A stretch of DNA of 19,122 nucleotides from Spartobacteria bacterium (GTDB lineage: Bacteria > Verrucomicrobiota > Verrucomicrobiia > Chthoniobacterales > Terrimicrobiaceae). The DNA is taken from the NCBI GenBank assembly GCA_947487745.1, contig CANKXQ010000004.1:1-19122 (forward strand). The letters are read 5' to 3'. Below the pieces are notes generated by a model. The model saw nothing but the letters and a program-made list of their open reading frames with translations, was not told the DNA's origin and did no database searches. Of this stretch, positions 3,111 through 10,619 are shown one piece after another; position 1 is the stretch's first letter; the number at the start of each line of letters is the position of its first letter. Both the position numbers and the translations under genes were made by a program.

Positions 3111-3231
3111 GAGAGTTTTCGACCTGCGGAGCCCAGCTCATCTCAAGGTGCTGGCTGCCGCGTGTTAGGTTAGATCGTTTTTTCGTTTGCGTCGTCTTCG
3201 CATTCCGTAAACTACCTGATTCTCATCACGC

Positions 3232-6200
3232 ATGATTTCATCCACCGAAAAAGCCCTTCGCGATCTTCTCGCTCAACGAATCCTCATTTTGGACGGCGCG
3301 ATGGGAACCATGATCCAGCAATACAAATTGCAGGAGGCCGACTATCGCGGGGAGCGTTTTGCAGATTGGAAGGGCCAGGATTTAAAAGGCAACAATGACC
3401 TGCTTGTGCTCACGAAGCCGCAGATCATTCGTGAGATTCATGGCAAATACATTGCCGCCGGGGCGGATATCATTGAAACGAACACATTCAATGCGACGAC
3501 AATTTCCCAGGCCGACTACGGTCTCGAGCATCTTGTTCCCGAATTGAACTTGGCGGCGGCGAGGGTCGCACGCGAGGCGGCGGATGCCGTCACAAACAGG
3601 CGCGTCTTCGTGGCGGGGGCGATCGGGCCGCTCAACCGCACGCTATCGATTTCGCGGGATGTCAACGATCCCGGAAAGCGTGAAGTGACCTTCGAGGAGG
3701 TTGCTGCCGCCTACACCGAGCAGATTAAAAACCTCGTCGCAGGCGGGGTGGATATTCTGCTTGTTGAAACGATTTTCGACACGCTGAACGCGAAGGCTGC
3801 ACTTTTTGCAATAGCCCGATTTTTTGAAAAGCACCCGCGCATGCCGGTCATGGCATCTGGCACGATCACCGACTTGAGCGGAAGAACGCTCACTGGTCAG
3901 ACGGTGGAGGCTTTTCTCAATTCGCTTTCCCACTTTCCGCTTCTGTCCATCGGCCTCAATTGCGCTCTGGGGCCGAAAGAAATGCGGCCCTACATCGAGG
4001 AGCTCTCGAACATCTCGCCGTTCTTCGTTAGCACATATCCGAATGCCGGTCTGCCTGATCCGCTCTCGCCTACAGGATTTCCGGAGACTCCGGAGAGCCT
4101 CGCACCACAACTCCTCGAATGGGCAGAGCAGGGTTGGCTGAATATTATTGGCGGATGCTGCGGCACCACTCCCGGCCACATCAAAGCCATCGCCGATGTG
4201 GTTCGCGGATTGCCTCCGCGCCGGATTCCCGCCCGCACGGCGACTCTTAGATTGAGCGGCCTGGAGCCATTCACCGCGCGTCCGGAGATTCCCTTCATCA
4301 ATATCGGCGAGCGGACGAATGTGACAGGCTCGCCAAAATTTGCGAAACTCATCCTCGCCGGAAACTACGACGAAGCCCTCGCTGTGGCGCGCCAGCAAGT
4401 AGAGGCCGGGGCGCAGATCATCGATGTGAACATGGACGAAGGCATGCTCGATGGTGCCGCCGCCATGACGAAGTTCCTCAACCTCGTGGCCAGCGAGCCG
4501 GACATTTCCCGTGTGCCGGTGATGATCGATTCCTCGAAATGGGAAGTCCTTGAGGCCGGTCTGCGCTGCGTCCAAGGCAAGTGCGTCGTCAACTCGATCA
4601 GCCTCAAAGAAGGTCCTGAAAAATTCAAGGAACAGGCCAGCCTTATTCGCGCCTACGGAGCCTCGACGATCGTCATGGCCTTCGACGAAAAGGGACAAGC
4701 CGATAGCTTCGAGCGCAAAATCCAAATCTGCGAACGCGCCTATCGCATGCTTGTCGATGAAGTGGGATTCCCGCCGGAGGACATCATTTTCGATCCAAAC
4801 ATCCTCACCGTTGCCACCGGCATCGAAGAGCACAACGACTACGCGAACGCATTCATCAATGCCACGCGCTGGATCAAGGAAAACCTCCCCTACGCCCGTG
4901 TGAGCGGCGGCATTAGCAACATCTCGTTTTCATTCCGTGGCAACAATCCTGTGCGCGAGGCCATGCACGCCGCGTTCCTTTACCATGCCATCAAGGCCGG
5001 GTTGGACATGGGGATTGTGAATGCCGGTCAGCTCGGTATTTACGAGGACATTCCAAAGGACCTCCTCGAACTCATCGAGGATGTCCTGCTGAACCGCCGT
5101 CTGGATGCCACCGAGCGCCTCGTCACATTTGCCGAGAATTTCAAGGCCTCGAAAACTGGCGGCACTGGCTCCGCTCCCGTGCAAGACACCGCCTGGCGCG
5201 AACTCCCTGTGGAGAAGCGCCTGCAGCATGCCCTTATCAAAGGCATCGTGGATCACATCGACGCCGACACCGAGGAGGCTCTGAAAAAATACGGCAAGCC
5301 GCTATCGGTCATCGAGGGGCCTCTCATGGATGGCATGAAAATCGTGGGCGACCTCTTTGGCGCGGGGAAAATGTTCCTGCCGCAGGTCGTGAAGAGTGCC
5401 CGCGTGATGAAAAAATCCGTCGCATGGCTCACCCCGCTCATGGAGGCCGAGCGCGCCGCGAATCCGAATGCCCGCACGCAGGGCCGCATTCTCATGGCCA
5501 CGGTGAAAGGCGATGTCCACGATATCGGCAAAAACATCGTGGGCGTTGTCCTGGCCTGCAACAATTACGAAGTCATCGACATGGGCGTGATGGTTCCCTG
5601 CGAAAAAATCCTCGCCACTGCGCAGGAAAAAAATTGTGACATCATCGGCCTCTCCGGACTCATCACACCATCCCTCGACGAGATGATCCATGTCGCAAAG
5701 GAAATGCAGCGTCAGGGTTTCACCATCCCGCTCATGATCGGCGGTGCCACGACCAGCAGGGCGCACACGGCCGTCAAAATTTCCCAGTATTACTCCGGCG
5801 GAGTCGTTCATGTCCTCGACGCCTCCCGCGCCGTGAATGTCGCCAGCTCGCTTCTCAGTCCCGATCAAAAACCTGCGTTTCTCACGAATCTGGAATCCGA
5901 CTACGAAAAACTCCGCATCGAACATGCCGGAAGACAAGCCGGGAAGCCAATGCTCCCGCTCGCAGAGGCTATCGCGAACGCGCCGAATCTCCCGCACGAC
6001 AACATCGCTGTCCCGGAGCAAACGGGTGTGGTTGTTTTTGAATCCGCGAAACCCTGCTCCGGCTTCCCTCGTCGGATTGGTGGGCTTAAAGTCACCTCCG
6101 AGTCCGAACTCAAACAAATTTTCTCACTCGACTGCCCTCCGACTTGGTTCAGCACTGACGACACGCCAAAGATGGTCGAGGAAAAGCGCGCCCTTAAAGC

Positions 6201-7953
6201 AGCCTCTTTCGACAACGAACTCGTTCGCGAATTTCTCATCAGATATTGCCATCCTTTCAATTATTCTGCCGCCTTTGAAGGTGAACGCCCAGTCCTTGTT
6301 GTGGCGCCATCAACTTCGGGTAAAAACAAACTGCCATCGATTTTTGCGGACTGGCTTCAAAGCCATTTTCCGTGCGACATCGATGAAACCCTTGATGCGG
6401 TTTCCGCAGAAGAGGCAAAAAACCGCACAGGATATGTCGGCAAGGTGTCCCAACCCTCGACGATCGTCGTTCCAGAGGAATCGATCTCGGGCCTGGTCAA
6501 TCGTCGCGTCCTTCTCGTGGACGACATTCTCACCAGCGGGGAAACCATCAATGCCATGCAGGAAGCATTGGAGGCGGCGGGCGTGAAAATTTCTGGCGTT
6601 CTCGTCCTTGGAGCCGCCATGAAAGCGAAACCTACTTTCGTCACCACCGTCAACCAACTTGCGAAACAACTCGCCGTCGATTCCGAAGAAAAATGGAAAA
6701 CGGTGTATGAGGATTTCCAAGTAGCGCACAGCCAGTCCTATGCTAACCTCATCAGAAAGGCAAAAAACGATGCAACCAATCTACCCAAAGACATTAGAAC
6801 ACTTGTCGCCGCAAAAGCTGCAGCACTACGCAGAACTTCACGAACACATGTATCAAGAGAGCATCCGGCTCAATCGCACCCCGATTCCGGAGGAACTCCA
6901 GGATCCGCAGGAGTGGATGAACTTTTGCAAGTGGCGAAACGACAACTGGCGCAAATTGTGCCGCGAATCATCACCGAAAGTGGTGGAGATGTTGATGAAA
7001 CGGGAAGCCGTTCAAGACTCTTGGCTCCTCAACGAAGAGCCGTCAGCCTCCGCGACCTGATTCCCTTCATCGACTGGTCGCCGTTTTTCCACACTTGGGA
7101 ATTGCGCGGGCGGTATCCTGCGATTTTTGACGACCCGAATTGCGGGGTCGAAGCCAAGAAGCTTTTTGAGGATGCCCAGAAGTTGCTGGCCGAGATTGTT
7201 GCTGACGAGAGTCTGCAACTTCGCGGCGTGTGTGGACTTTTTCCGGCCAATCGCGATGGCGAGGACATCATTGTTTACACCGATGAGTCGCGCACCAATG
7301 AGGTCGTGCGCTTTCACGGTTTGCGCCAGCAAATGAAAAAGCCTGAGGGGCAGTTCAATTTCTCCATCGCTGATTTCGTCGCGCCCGCTCCAGCCAAGGA
7401 TTATGTCGGCGCCTTTGCCGTCACTTCCGGCCACGGCATGCTCGAAGTGGTAAAAAAATTCAAAGCTGCGCATGACGATTACAATGTCATCATGACGGAG
7501 GCGATCGCCGACCGCTTCGCCGAGGCGTTTGCGGAATACATGCACAAGTTTGCGCGTGACGCATGGGGCTTCGGAAAGACTGAAAACCTGACGCCTGAGG
7601 AAATCATCCGCGAAAAATACCGTGGCATCCGCCCCGCGCCCGGTTATCCCGCTCAGCCCGACCACACGGAGAAATGGGCGATCTGGAAGCTTCTCGATGC
7701 AGAGCAAAATACCGGCATCACCCTCACGGAGAGCCTTGCCATGTTCCCGGCGAGCAGCGTGAGCGGGCTTTATTTTGGACATCCTGAGTCAAAATACTTC
7801 GCCGTTGGAAAAATCGAGCGCGACCAGATTGAAAGCTACGCGCAGCGTAAAGGCATGTCGGTTGAGGAAGCCCAGAAGTGGCTCCAGCCCTATTTGAACT
7901 ACGACCCTGACAGCCAGCTCACACGGCCTTGCCAGCCTGGGGTCAGCAACTGA
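3232..7953 (+). CDS. metH: Cobalamin-dependent methionine synthase with a large internal insert
   Basis: MetH moves the methyl group from 5-methyltetrahydrofolate to homocysteine through cobalamin. All four modules are present: homocysteine domain (about 1-330; zinc ligands C244 in GLNCALG and C309/C310 in GGCCGTTP), pterin-binding domain (from about 355, [11 protein letters not shown]), cobalamin cap and binding domain (about 650-900; D761-x-H763-x-x-G766 supplies the cobalt ligand His), and AdoMet activation domain (about 1271-1573; [29 protein letters not shown]). The canonical PxC in the last motif is PAQ here. At 1573 residues it is far longer than the usual 1220-1260. Residues about 939-1270 are an in-frame insert between the cobalamin and activation domains; without it the protein would be about 1241 residues. 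Whether one polypeptide is made, and whether reactivation works, is not known. No clear SAM or cobalamin riboswitch was seen in the 120 bp after the terminator. Confidence 0.93.
6046..7041 (+). other. In-frame insert in metH: phosphoribosyltransferase-like segment plus a nested ORF
   Basis: MetH homology stops near GVVVFES (ends 6045) and resumes at [12 protein letters not shown] (from 7042), leaving about 996 bp (332 codons) foreign to MetH. Edges are good to perhaps 10 codons. In the MetH frame, residues 1019-1031 ([13 protein letters not shown]) resemble the first PRTase loop, and residues 1093-1105 ([13 protein letters not shown]) match the type I PRTase PRPP-binding signature: hydrophobic run, two Asp, then TSGxT. 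From about 6760 the MetH-frame protein turns into low-complexity R/S/T/G/P sequence with AT-rich third positions, while the +1 frame carries a protein-like ORF. No transposase, intein motif (no terminal HN) or clear terminal inverted repeat is seen. I infer a captured two-gene cassette. The PRTase substrate cannot be told. Confidence 0.7.
6770..7060 (+). CDS. Nested small ORF inside the metH insert, unknown function
   Basis: I do not recognise this 96-residue protein. It starts [20 protein letters not shown], is charged, and carries a Trp-rich stretch ([17 protein letters not shown]) followed by a helical-looking [12 protein letters not shown]. It lies in the +1 frame relative to MetH. An AGAAAGG 9 nt before the ATG may serve for ribosome binding. 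By hand count, third-position GC is 65 of 96 codons (68%), against 29 of 91 (32%) for the overlapping MetH frame, which marks this as the better coding frame. The last few codons (from about 7042) run into metH activation-domain sequence, so the original C-terminus may have been lost or replaced. An in-frame ATG at 6740 would add 10 residues. It may be a live gene, a relic of an inserted cassette, or the second part of a frameshifted PRTase protein. Confidence 0.45.
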
Positions 7954-7963
7954 TTTTTAAAAA

Positions 7964-9610
7964 ATGAAAACCCTCGTCATAGGTCATCGCAACCCGGATA
8001 TGGACTCGATCTGCTCTGCTATTGGATATGCGGAGTTCAAGCGCGCAACCGGAATGGATGGTGTCATCGCGGCCCGATGCGGAAACACCAACCAGCGGAT
8101 CGATTTCGCTCTTCAAAAATTCGGCCTCGAGGCCCCGGTTTTCTTCGCCGATGTCTATCCCCGCATCGAGGATGTCATGCAACGGAATGTTGTAAGCATC
8201 CACCGCGACGCCCCTGTTTATCAGGCCATGACGCGTTTCGGTGAGGACAAGTTCCGCGGTCTGCCTGTCGTCGACGATGCCCGCAACTGCATCGGACTCC
8301 TCTCCGCATTCAAGCTCGGGAAATATCTCTTCCCGCCGATTGAGAACCTTTCCTCGAGCCGCATTGTGGAGGCTTCGATCGCACACATTCGCGAAGCCAT
8401 ACGGGCGACGCTCATCACTGGCAAGGAAGACACTGCCATCCGTCCGCGCACCTTGGTCGTTGCGGCCATGCTTACGGACTCGTTCAAAAAACGTCTTGAG
8501 CAGCTCGATATTCCTTCCACCGTTTTGATTGTCGGCGACCGCTGGAACATCCAAGAACTCTCGATCCTTGCCGGTGTGCCGGCCATCATCATCACAAACA
8601 ATTTTTCCCCGCCGGATAAAATTCTCGCTCTGGCGCAGGAACACGGCACAACCCTCTTGTCATCGCCGCATGACACCGCGACGACCACGCTTCTGGCACG
8701 CGCAGCTGTGACTGCGGGGCAAATGCTCTCGCCGGATTTCACCTGTCTGTCAGCGGATGCCACCCTGCGGCAAACGCGCAACGACTTGGCAATAACATCG
8801 CAGTTTGCCTTTCCCGTTTTGGGGCCTCAGGGCCGCATGCAGGGAATCATCTCAAAAAGCGACCTGCTTCGGCCTGCACCCCGGCAGTTGATCTTGGTCG
8901 ATCACAATGAACTGACTCAGGCGGTTGCCGGTGCGGAGGAGTTGCCGATCGTGGAAATCCTCGACCACCACCGAATCGGCGTGGCTCCGACCCAACAACC
9001 AATCCTCTTCATGAACCGCCCTGTGGGCTCCACAAGCACGATTGTGGCGGATTGTTTCCGCATGGCCCGCATTCCCATTCCCAAGCCAGTGGCGGGATTA
9101 CTCATGTGCGGAATGATTTCCGACACCCTGAATCTCACTTCGCCCACAACGACTGCTGTGGACCGCGAGATCATGCAGGAACTTTCCAAAATCTGCGGCG
9201 TGAAGCCGGGCGATCTCGCCAACGAGATTTTCAGTGTCGGCTCGCCGCTCCTTACGCTCTCCACCAAGGAGGTCATCACCGCCGACTGCAAGGAATATGA
9301 CGAAAGGGGCGTGGTTTTCAGCGTCTCACAGATCGAGGAAATCAGCTTCGCACAACTCGAGAAGCAGCGCTCAGCACTCTTGGAGGAGCTAGAGAAATAC
9401 CGTGTGTCGCATGGTTACCTCTTCTCAACCCTTTTGATCACCGATGTGAACACCCAGAACTCGGTCCTCCTTGTCAATGGCGATGAGAGTTTCACGCGCC
9501 TCATCGATTTTCCCGAGGATGGCCTCAACGCGTGGCGCCTTGACGGGATTGTATCCCGCAAAAAGCAACTCCTGCCCTACCTCACGGAAACATTGGCGCG
9601 CATGGCCTGA
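7964..9610 (+). CDS. ppaC: Family II Mn-dependent inorganic pyrophosphatase with CBS and DRTGG domains
   Basis: This 548-residue enzyme hydrolyses pyrophosphate. The DHH-type active site is complete: GHRNPDMDSI at 7-16 (H8, D12, D14), DHNE at 313-316, DHHRIG from 334, and the C-terminal DHHA2 signature SRKKQ at 531-535. Between the first and later DHH motifs lies a regulatory insert: CBS motif 1 (about 70-130, IEDVMQRNVVSIHRDAPV), a DRTGG-like segment (about 180-255) and CBS motif 2 (about 255-310, ending GIISKSDLLRPAPRQ). Known CBS-PPases of this architecture are inhibited by AMP/ADP and activated by ATP or diadenosine polyphosphates, so this one is likely tuned to energy state. The gene begins 10 bp after the metH stop and is probably co-transcribed with it. 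Plain family II PPases are about 310 residues; the extra length is explained by the insert. Confidence 0.93.
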   Translation: MKTLVIGHRNPDMDSICSAIGYAEFKRATGMDGVIAARCGNTNQRIDFALQKFGLEAPVFFADVYPRIEDVMQRNVVSIHRDAPVYQAMTRFGEDKFRGLPVVDDARNCIGLLSAFKLGKYLFPPIENLSSSRIVEASIAHIREAIRATLITGKEDTAIRPRTLVVAAMLTDSFKKRLEQLDIPSTVLIVGDRWNIQELSILAGVPAIIITNNFSPPDKILALAQEHGTTLLSSPHDTATTTLLARAAVTAGQMLSPDFTCLSADATLRQTRNDLAITSQFAFPVLGPQGRMQGIISKSDLLRPAPRQLILVDHNELTQAVAGAEELPIVEILDHHRIGVAPTQQPILFMNRPVGSTSTIVADCFRMARIPIPKPVAGLLMCGMISDTLNLTSPTTTAVDREIMQELSKICGVKPGDLANEIFSVGSPLLTLSTKEVITADCKEYDERGVVFSVSQIEEISFAQLEKQRSALLEELEKYRVSHGYLFSTLLITDVNTQNSVLLVNGDESFTRLIDFPEDGLNAWRLDGIVSRKKQLLPYLTETLARMA

Positions 9611-9622
9611 TTCTGCATCTCC

Positions 9623-10135
9623 ATGAAATTCGGAGACAATCTCACCGGTTCGCTTCTCGTGGCGCACCCCTGCCTGCGTGATCCAAACTTCCGAAGGGCC
9701 ATTGTCTTTCTCTCCCAACATTCCCCGCACGAGGGAGCGACGGGATTTATCCTGAACCGCCCGCTTCAAGCCCTGCCAGATGCCGGGGTGCCCGTCTTTA
9801 TCGGCGGTCCCGTCGGCTCGGATGAAAGCCTCCTGACGAGCCTCCAATGGCGGGAAAACCCCACACTCGTGGCGTTTCGGGCCTTCACCGATGTGGCCGA
9901 TGCCGAGTCGCGTCAAGGCTGGGAGAAGGGACTTCGAATTTTCGAAGGATACGCCGGTTGGTCTCCCGGTCAGCTTGAGCAGGAGATCGAAGGCAACACC
10001 TGGCTCGTCATTCCGCCCACGCGCGAGCTGATTGAAATGATTGATCCCTTCCCTGCGTGGCAGGGTATCATGCGGAATTCCGGACCCCTCCTGCACCTTC
10101 TCTCCGAGGCGCCGGATGATCCTGGATTGAACTGA
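9623..10135 (+). CDS. YqgE/AlgH family protein
   Basis: The 170-residue protein matches the YqgE/AlgH (DUF179) family throughout. It has the N-terminal GSLLVAHPCLRDPNFRRAIVFL, then GATGFILNRPL, the FIGGPVGSDESLL segment, and the best-known block FEGYAGWSPGQLEQEIEGNTWLV near residues 108-130. Members are small soluble cytoplasmic proteins of uncertain biochemical role; the AlgH name comes from an alginate-linked gene in Pseudomonas. Length is slightly under the common 180-190 residues. It starts 12 bp after the pyrophosphatase stop, so metH, the pyrophosphatase and this gene probably form one transcription unit. No terminator is obvious after it. Confidence 0.9.
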   Translation: MKFGDNLTGSLLVAHPCLRDPNFRRAIVFLSQHSPHEGATGFILNRPLQALPDAGVPVFIGGPVGSDESLLTSLQWRENPTLVAFRAFTDVADAESRQGWEKGLRIFEGYAGWSPGQLEQEIEGNTWLVIPPTRELIEMIDPFPAWQGIMRNSGPLLHLLSEAPDDPGLN

Positions 10136-10196
10136 GCGGCTTTCCAAGGGCCCCACGGCTTGCATTCAAATCGGGCGGAGGCTTTCTTTCACGTCG

Positions 10197-10619
10197 ATGA
10201 CAGGGACATCCTCGCAAAAACTGACATCGCAGGAGTATCCCGCAATCGAACGGGATTCGGATTTCAAAAGCGAGTTTTTCGATGGCGAGATGTTCGCGAT
10301 GGGGGTGATTTCAAAAAGAGCTTCCCGCATTACGGTGAATCTCACCGGCGGCTTTCACGCCGCAATACGAGGCAAAGACGGCGAGCTTTTCTCCTCCGAT
10401 CTCCGCGTTAAAGTCAGTGCCAACGGCCTCTACACTTATCCCGACCTGACAATCGTTTGTGGTCCCGTCGATGTGGAGGACGAGCAGGCCGTTGTCTTGC
10501 TGAACCCAACGCTCATCATTGAGGTGCTGTCTCCGGGGACGGAGCGCTACGACCGTGGCATAAAATTTGATCTCTACCGCAAGCTGGATTCCCTCAAGGA
10601 ATATGTGTGCCGCGGATGA
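10197..10619 (+). pseudogene. Uma2 family (DUF820) nuclease-like gene, C-terminally truncated
   Basis: The 140-residue product matches Uma2 proteins, which have a PD-(D/E)xK restriction-nuclease-like fold and unknown biological role. It shows the N-terminal EYPAIERDSDFKSEFFDGEM, where the E of the FxGE pattern is kept, the strand YPDLTIVCGP with its active-site-like Asp, and the C-terminal core NPTLIIEVLSPGTERYDRG followed by KFDLYRKLDSLKEYV. Family members normally go on for about 40-50 residues from KEYV (typically KEYVLVD). Here three unrelated codons and a TGA follow. The break point, about 10607-10612, is also where homology to TerC begins, so a deletion has joined two genes. The nuclease-core residues survive, so residual function cannot be ruled out. 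Confidence 0.75.

Follow-up and report, generated by a model that had tools for sequence, protein, structure and literature searches.

Inteins and self-splicing introns insert in frame into important genes, are patchily distributed and are exchanged at a single allelic site, and in the ShosTA and PsyrTA systems a DprA-like antitoxin gene adjoins the gene of a phosphoribosyltransferase (PRTase) toxin. Polyvalent proteins of phages and conjugative elements include PRTase and zeta-kinase domains, and a survey names Proteobacteria and Verrucomicrobiae as the main PRTase sources and conjugative elements of Verrucomicrobium and Proteobacteria as the origin of the zeta-like kinase (Iyer et al. 2017, PMC5512222). 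Here we analysed a stretch of 19,122 nucleotides (the window; contig CANKXQ010000004.1, contig 4 of a Spartobacteria bacterium genome of 1.5 Mb and 64% completeness), in which metH, the gene of the cobalamin-dependent methionine synthase MetH, carries an in-frame insert of about 1 kb. On balance, we read this insert as a two-gene effector/partner module of mobile-element origin, probably toxin-antitoxin (TA)-like, that is nested unspliced in the MetH linker. Judged from the sequence comparisons, nesting, two-frame coding and exchange between alleles are jointly very probable, and a toxin/antidote relation between its two genes, A and B, may be assumed with slightly less than even confidence.

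The metH gene (3232..7953, on the forward strand like all features below) is a single open frame of 1573 amino acids including the insert. Its product contains the Pfam domains S-methyl_trans, Pterin_bind, B12-binding_2, B12-binding and Met_synt_B12, with Pribosyltran preceding the last. Comparison with an insert-free member of the same genus (G013; G and L numbers denote the genomes and loci compared, P numbers protein clusters, and G000 the genome of the window copy) revealed collinearity with window positions 3173-6051 (91% identity) and 7054-10606 (85%). As these blocks lie only about 22 bp apart in G013, roughly 1 kb stands in the place of a short linker. The insert accordingly spans 6046..7041, with edges defined to about ±12 bp; it corresponds to MetH residues ~939-1270, which are missing from close relatives, and is followed in frame by the Met_synt_B12 activation domain (7048..7854). 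The G013 comparison and the Pfam domain order thus confirmed the claim of an earlier, sequence-only reading that an in-frame stretch of about 330 codons separates the B12 domain from the activation domain. Its count of 332 non-MetH codons was also correct, although just ~260 of them belong to a PRTase; the 3' ~68 codons consist chiefly of another gene, read in the +1 frame, which that reading had overlooked. The window metH is the sole PF02965 match in the 64% complete source genome, in which DNA and protein searches revealed no further insert copy. An assembly artefact or chance join was rejected: the insert lies in frame and at the same place in two further genomes of the genus (G011 and G005) and in 11 MetH protein clusters, which argues strongly against such an origin.

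Gene A (6064..6843) is a type I PRTase module of ~260 codons in the metH frame, neither end of which has its own start or stop codon. In the window, PF00156 (Pribosyltran) matched MetH residues 1071-1128 above the gathering score (E 2.9e-7), and the family was found in all 11 aligned members (E<=0.01). Both motifs named in the sequence-only reading were located in the insert. The first is PSTSGK (6307..6324), in which PSTSG is invariant in 11 of 11 rows of the alignment (A1) and which presumably forms the pyrophosphate loop; the second is the phosphoribosyl pyrophosphate (PRPP)-binding motif (6508..6546), with an 11-letter stretch invariant in the same 11 rows. The copy of G537, which lies outside A1, reads DDILASGET at this DD motif. 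An AlphaFold2 model of the insert is mostly ordered over about insert residues 30-264, so that gene A combines the PF00156 profile and the PRPP-binding DD motif with a predicted PRTase fold, as expected of a type I PRTase. Its third-position bias follows the metH frame, and its GC content at third codon positions (GC3) is 0.54 versus 0.70 and 0.68 in the metH parts.

Profile comparisons connected gene A with ShosT (E 5.7e-9) and PsyrT (E 6.9e-6), although other PRTases, ComF above all, matched the model equally well or better; a ComF-like or metabolic role for gene A stays conceivable. The gene A family profile also found the C-terminus of a 1938-residue LPD37 polyvalent protein in G325 (E 4.2e-33). 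On the respective contig 162, two polyvalent-type proteins that are similar by eye lie next to each other (L107 2682-8495 and 10287-13367). The first of these ends in the gene A-family PRTase and is followed by a small open reading frame (ORF), which resembles an ORF overlapping the PRTase in L066 (38% over 58 residues). In shuffling tests for a gene B-like ORF after gene A relatives outside MetH, L066 scored better than 99% of 3000 shuffles (30 as high) and in G325 2934 of 3000 shuffles were as high or higher, and B-like ORFs beside such relatives are thus hinted at and nothing beyond that. No relative of gene A was found in the plasmid collection, and the phage collection yielded a single weak match annotated as 'coat protein' (26% identity). 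P0014 and a zeta insert described below had no relatives in the plasmid or phage collections (the latter at E<=1e-8), and viral contigs gave one PRTase match of 46 residues and none with the A5 or zeta queries.

The 3' tail of the insert (6844..7041) keeps the metH frame open, is weakly conserved in that frame and is predicted to be disordered (predicted local distance difference test score, pLDDT, about 30), whereas its +1 frame is constrained as gene B. This overlapping ORF (6770..7060) encodes 96 amino acids from the ATG at 6770, with ATG 6740 and TTG 6803 as other possible starts, and its stop codon falls within metH activation-domain codons. Nucleotide differences in the tail at metH-frame positions 1/2/3 amounted to 27/6/4 for G000-G005, 27/5/3 for G011-G005 and 10/1/1 for G000-G011, compared with 38/23/70, 11/7/43 and 40/20/66, respectively, in the gene A core; the two patterns differed at chi-square p-values of 1.9e-6, 7e-9 and 0.0016 in the same order. 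The +1 frame gave the highest amino-acid identity of the tail in all ten pairs of five genomes, of which the distant ones are near saturation. The gene B motifs MYQES, TPxPxEL, DPxEW and NW were present in the five intact DNA copies and in a remnant in G505, and five other aligned copies were 43-90% identical to that of the window. AlphaFold2 assigned pLDDT values of 86-92 to gene B residues 11-60, versus values near 30 for the metH-frame tail. The substitution pattern marks gene B as genuine, with constraint acting on its +1 reading.

The metH frame, in turn, is open across gene B in 5 of 5 DNA copies. When synonymous codons of B were redrawn, the chance of an open metH frame was 0.021 in G000, 0.009 in G011, 0.091 in G005, 0.340 in G545 and 0.346 in G537; these probabilities cannot simply be multiplied because the rows are related. 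Both frames therefore appear from the alignments to be kept, the +1 frame for the B protein and the metH frame so that translation reaches the activation domain. The translation start of gene B is less sharply defined, with no clear start signal seen: ATG 6740 is matched in 5 of 5 copies, largely forced by gene A codons, and ATG 6770 in 3 of 5. Searches with the gene B family returned neither DprA nor any other profile match that we believed, and fold searches gave nothing under E 1. Weak matches to PDC-M24A (E 0.029), a phage peptidase family (0.041) and GST_C_7 (0.34) were dismissed. Among 384 genomes of the class, seven matched gene B at E<=0.01, of which G000, G005 and G505 have metH copies; apparent free copies in G201, G272, G470 and G504 and a second match in G505 looked like chance on reading, and viral matches of 22 residues in unrelated ORFs were likewise discarded.

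The sequence-only reading knew of no MetH with this architecture; however, others exist in the genus, in protein clusters and in a second order. Among 16 genomes of the genus, the insert was detected in three (G000, G011 and G005) at one site and was lacking in 12; among the matches listed, G008 was represented by its activation domain alone. Ten insert-free members could be aligned and have MetH proteins of 1240-1247 amino acids with an intact, mostly FES-GKSGN-ISL-like linker, and G009 and G014 were judged insert-free by match coordinates. Compared with the window copy, the inserts of G011 and G005 are 79% and 70% identical, in frame and at the same place. A search of long proteins revealed the same insert at 46-88% identity in 11 clusters, all of them MetH, and among shorter proteins, with scoring confined to the 7994 candidates richest in shared words, two MetH fragments with the insert were recovered. 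A MetH fragment, P0001, resembles P0003 closely by eye and has an in-frame gap of about 200 residues in the PRTase core; it could represent a decayed allele or an assembly error. Genome scans recovered insert DNA from G005, G011, G545 and G537 and the remnant in G505; Chthoniobacter flavus, Verrucomicrobia bacterium and Pedosphaera sp. are among the record names. PRTase searches matched 30 of 197 genomes at E<=0.001, three with the insert and 27 at 18-26 bits taken for ordinary PRTases, and 14 of 320 genomes at E<=1e-5. Of these 14, three matched in metH, one of them as a remnant, while the other 11, at 25-29 bits, were again taken for ordinary PRTases. The MetE-type family PF01717 had no match in 15 of the 16 genus genomes, many of which are incomplete, and matched G011 at E 2.4e-17; MetH is apparently the principal methionine synthase of these genomes or the only one.

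Comparison of the insert with its flanks revealed that the PRTase and MetH histories conflict, from which we conclude that the insert moves between metH alleles. G000 and G011 share flanks of 98% and 94% identity around a gene A of 76% identity, whereas the flanks of G011 and G005 (86% and 81%) are less similar than their gene A (89%). Likewise, identity between P0006 and G000 is 97% over the N-flank and 58% over gene A, and G537 and P0011 are 62% (N-flank) and 70% (C-flank) identical around a gene A of 80%. Approximately unbiased (AU) tests on gene A rejected the grouping of rows with 96-98% identical N-flanks (p 6e-42 with P0006 and 1.2e-5 without it), and tests on the flanks rejected three gene A groupings (p 4e-11, 4e-4 and 5e-72); these p-values, based on quick trees, are optimistic, since the groups were picked after the identity table had been seen. 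Between the window and G011, 23 of 300 bases differ at 6067-6366, 12 of 204 at 6838-7041 and 126 of 372 in the insert core. As the insert ends differ far less than the core, an exchange inside the module apparently substituted its core. In addition, contig 96 of G505 (L093 3-1946 and 2030-3238) carries the 3' half of an insert-free metH and, immediately after it, the terminal piece of gene A, then gene B and another activation domain, a layout which could be a leftover of recombination between two alleles; another contig of G505 carries metH with a zeta insert.

This zeta insert represents a second module type in the same enzyme. P0013 (PF06414) and G537 (PF06414, E 5.6e-10) additionally harbour a zeta-toxin kinase, which separates the B12 cap from the B12-binding domain. 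When 320 genomes of the other order were searched, ten matches were obtained, nine at 65-100% identity and one weak (G717, 26%). All nine inserts (L065 4369-5388; L095-L103) are joined to MetH upstream and eight of them downstream, with G673 cut short. In the window's order, three of 213 genomes contained just distant zeta relatives, 27-30% identical, in ORFs of 296-432 amino acids. For either insert type, close copies turned up in MetH alone. The zeta tail, too, holds a +1-frame ORF (B') of 60-70 amino acids with an EATLNALR-like motif in 7 of 7 loci aligned (of nine), and its ATG lies at the same place in all seven, partly dictated by the kinase frame. Codon-position differences summed over 21 pairs were 463/332/376 in the tail versus 675/497/1560 in the kinase core, p-values of about 2e-4 were obtained for each of the two pairs whose tails have diverged least, and the metH frame is open across the tail in 7 of 7 loci (chance 0.02-0.18 each). 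A zeta relative outside MetH in G062 showed no such +1-frame ORF. A match of B' to a phage HNH family (0.082) was disbelieved.

In its arrangement, the locus departs from each of the closest described systems. As with inteins and introns, the insertion is in frame, patchily present and exchanged at one allelic site; however, no Hint or endonuclease match was obtained from the insert in Pfam up to E 1 (sequence profiles only), and the window contains no Rfam family at gathering scores. An intein and a group I/II intron were rejected on these grounds, and the product is expected to retain the insert. ShosT and PsyrT match gene A by profile, as other PRTases do equally well or better, but gene B encodes a helical protein of ~96 amino acids instead of a DprA-like antitoxin, and gene A is embedded in MetH on both sides without its own start or stop. 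The enzyme kinds are those of polyvalent proteins, as the match in G325 illustrates, yet at this locus their host is a housekeeping enzyme, syntenic with insert-free G013 on both sides, and not a multidomain element protein, and the passages of PMC5512222 consulted mention no overlapping +1-frame partner. With known zeta-toxin modules, the second insert shares a zeta kinase and a small partner-like ORF, but it lies in frame inside MetH with the kinase upstream and the partner-like ORF in the +1 frame. Overall, a toxin-like enzyme followed by a small overlapping protein gene constitutes a type II-like TA layout, which the zeta insert parallels. The kinds of components are known; a description of their nesting, or of MetH inserts of this kind, was not found among open-licence PubMed Central papers (titles and abstract starts).

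Based on these comparisons, we propose that a mobile-element PRTase gene entered metH and lost its own start and stop, so that gene A would now be translated as an internal MetH domain. A ribosome would pass through MetH, A, the filler tail and the activation domain in that order, and full MetH would still be made, presumably without processing. Translation of gene B would start internally on the shared mRNA and yield a separate product, most likely an antitoxin or immunity protein that would restrain a toxic A. The module would spread and diversify by metH allele exchange, probably through homologous recombination via the flanks. An imprecise deletion would damage the apparently sole methionine synthase, and loss of the B supply would free A; a TA-like pair could thereby add addiction or a phage-triggered abortive defence.

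Two alternatives retain some weight, both of them improbable in our view. A domesticated metabolic fusion, in which the PRTase (elsewhere the zeta-like kinase) would tune MetH by sensing PRPP or nucleotides or by linking one-carbon and purine metabolism, with B as accessory regulator, would fit the restriction of close copies of both insert types to MetH, the purifying selection on gene A with its intact motifs and the completeness of the MetH domains. However, the insert is patchy (3 of 16 genus genomes), alleles are swapped between near-identical MetHs, a second overlapping gene is carried that would be unexpected for a regulatory domain, and two unrelated enzymes share the overlapping-gene plan. 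These observations make a regulatory fusion less likely. Of the two interpretations offered by the sequence-only reading, a fusion regulating cobalamin reactivation accordingly found no support, whereas the other, a mobile gene that metH has captured, draws support from the patchy presence in the genus, the tree conflict, the deviating GC3 and the kinship to the polyvalent-protein PRTase. The second alternative regards A and B as an abortive-infection pair at a variable metH site, whose diversity would be driven by phages and not by selfish addiction. The kinship to ShosT and PsyrT and the marked divergence that separates the A cores of near-identical hosts are in line with anti-phage alleles, but gene B is unlike known partners and the neighbouring genes, by ORF reading without a profile search, look ordinary and do not resemble a defence island.

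More doubtful still is that B forms the end of an A-B fusion produced by programmed +1 frameshifting, with a MetH-A-B product that would end short of the activation domain. The lack of a clear start signal for gene B and the A/B overlap, whose relative frame is identical in all five DNA copies, would be consistent with frameshifting; in-frame ATGs, on the other hand, precede the conserved part of gene B in 5 of 5. A dead or neutral prophage polyvalent gene fragment drifting in a tolerant linker, to which the linker position and the apparent in-frame loss of ~200 core residues in P0001 might point, is very improbable given that both frames are constrained, all five DNA copies retain an open metH frame, and the insert is found in two orders with invariant motifs.

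Downstream of metH, the next gene (window 7964-9610) resembles a DHH/CBS inorganic pyrophosphatase by ORF reading alone, a curious neighbour for a PRTase. The synteny with insert-free G013 runs on through this gene.

Returning to the nested two-gene module, we tentatively suggest that a splice-free, in-frame, two-frame addiction cassette could represent a new kind of mobile unit, into which a PRTase and a zeta kinase would have been recruited independently at two MetH boundaries and which would be exchanged like homing elements. Such a cassette would make a key enzyme its carrier, with the effector read as an internal domain of that enzyme and the partner supplied by a second frame of the DNA. 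If this holds true, effector/partner modules can sit inside a key protein without disruption and without splicing, a nested lifestyle of which inteins and introns are the only examples known to us. The resistance of the module to loss would then be accounted for, and overlapping coding would be forced by the need for an open host frame. Long variants of core enzymes in metagenomes may then conceal mobile cassettes.

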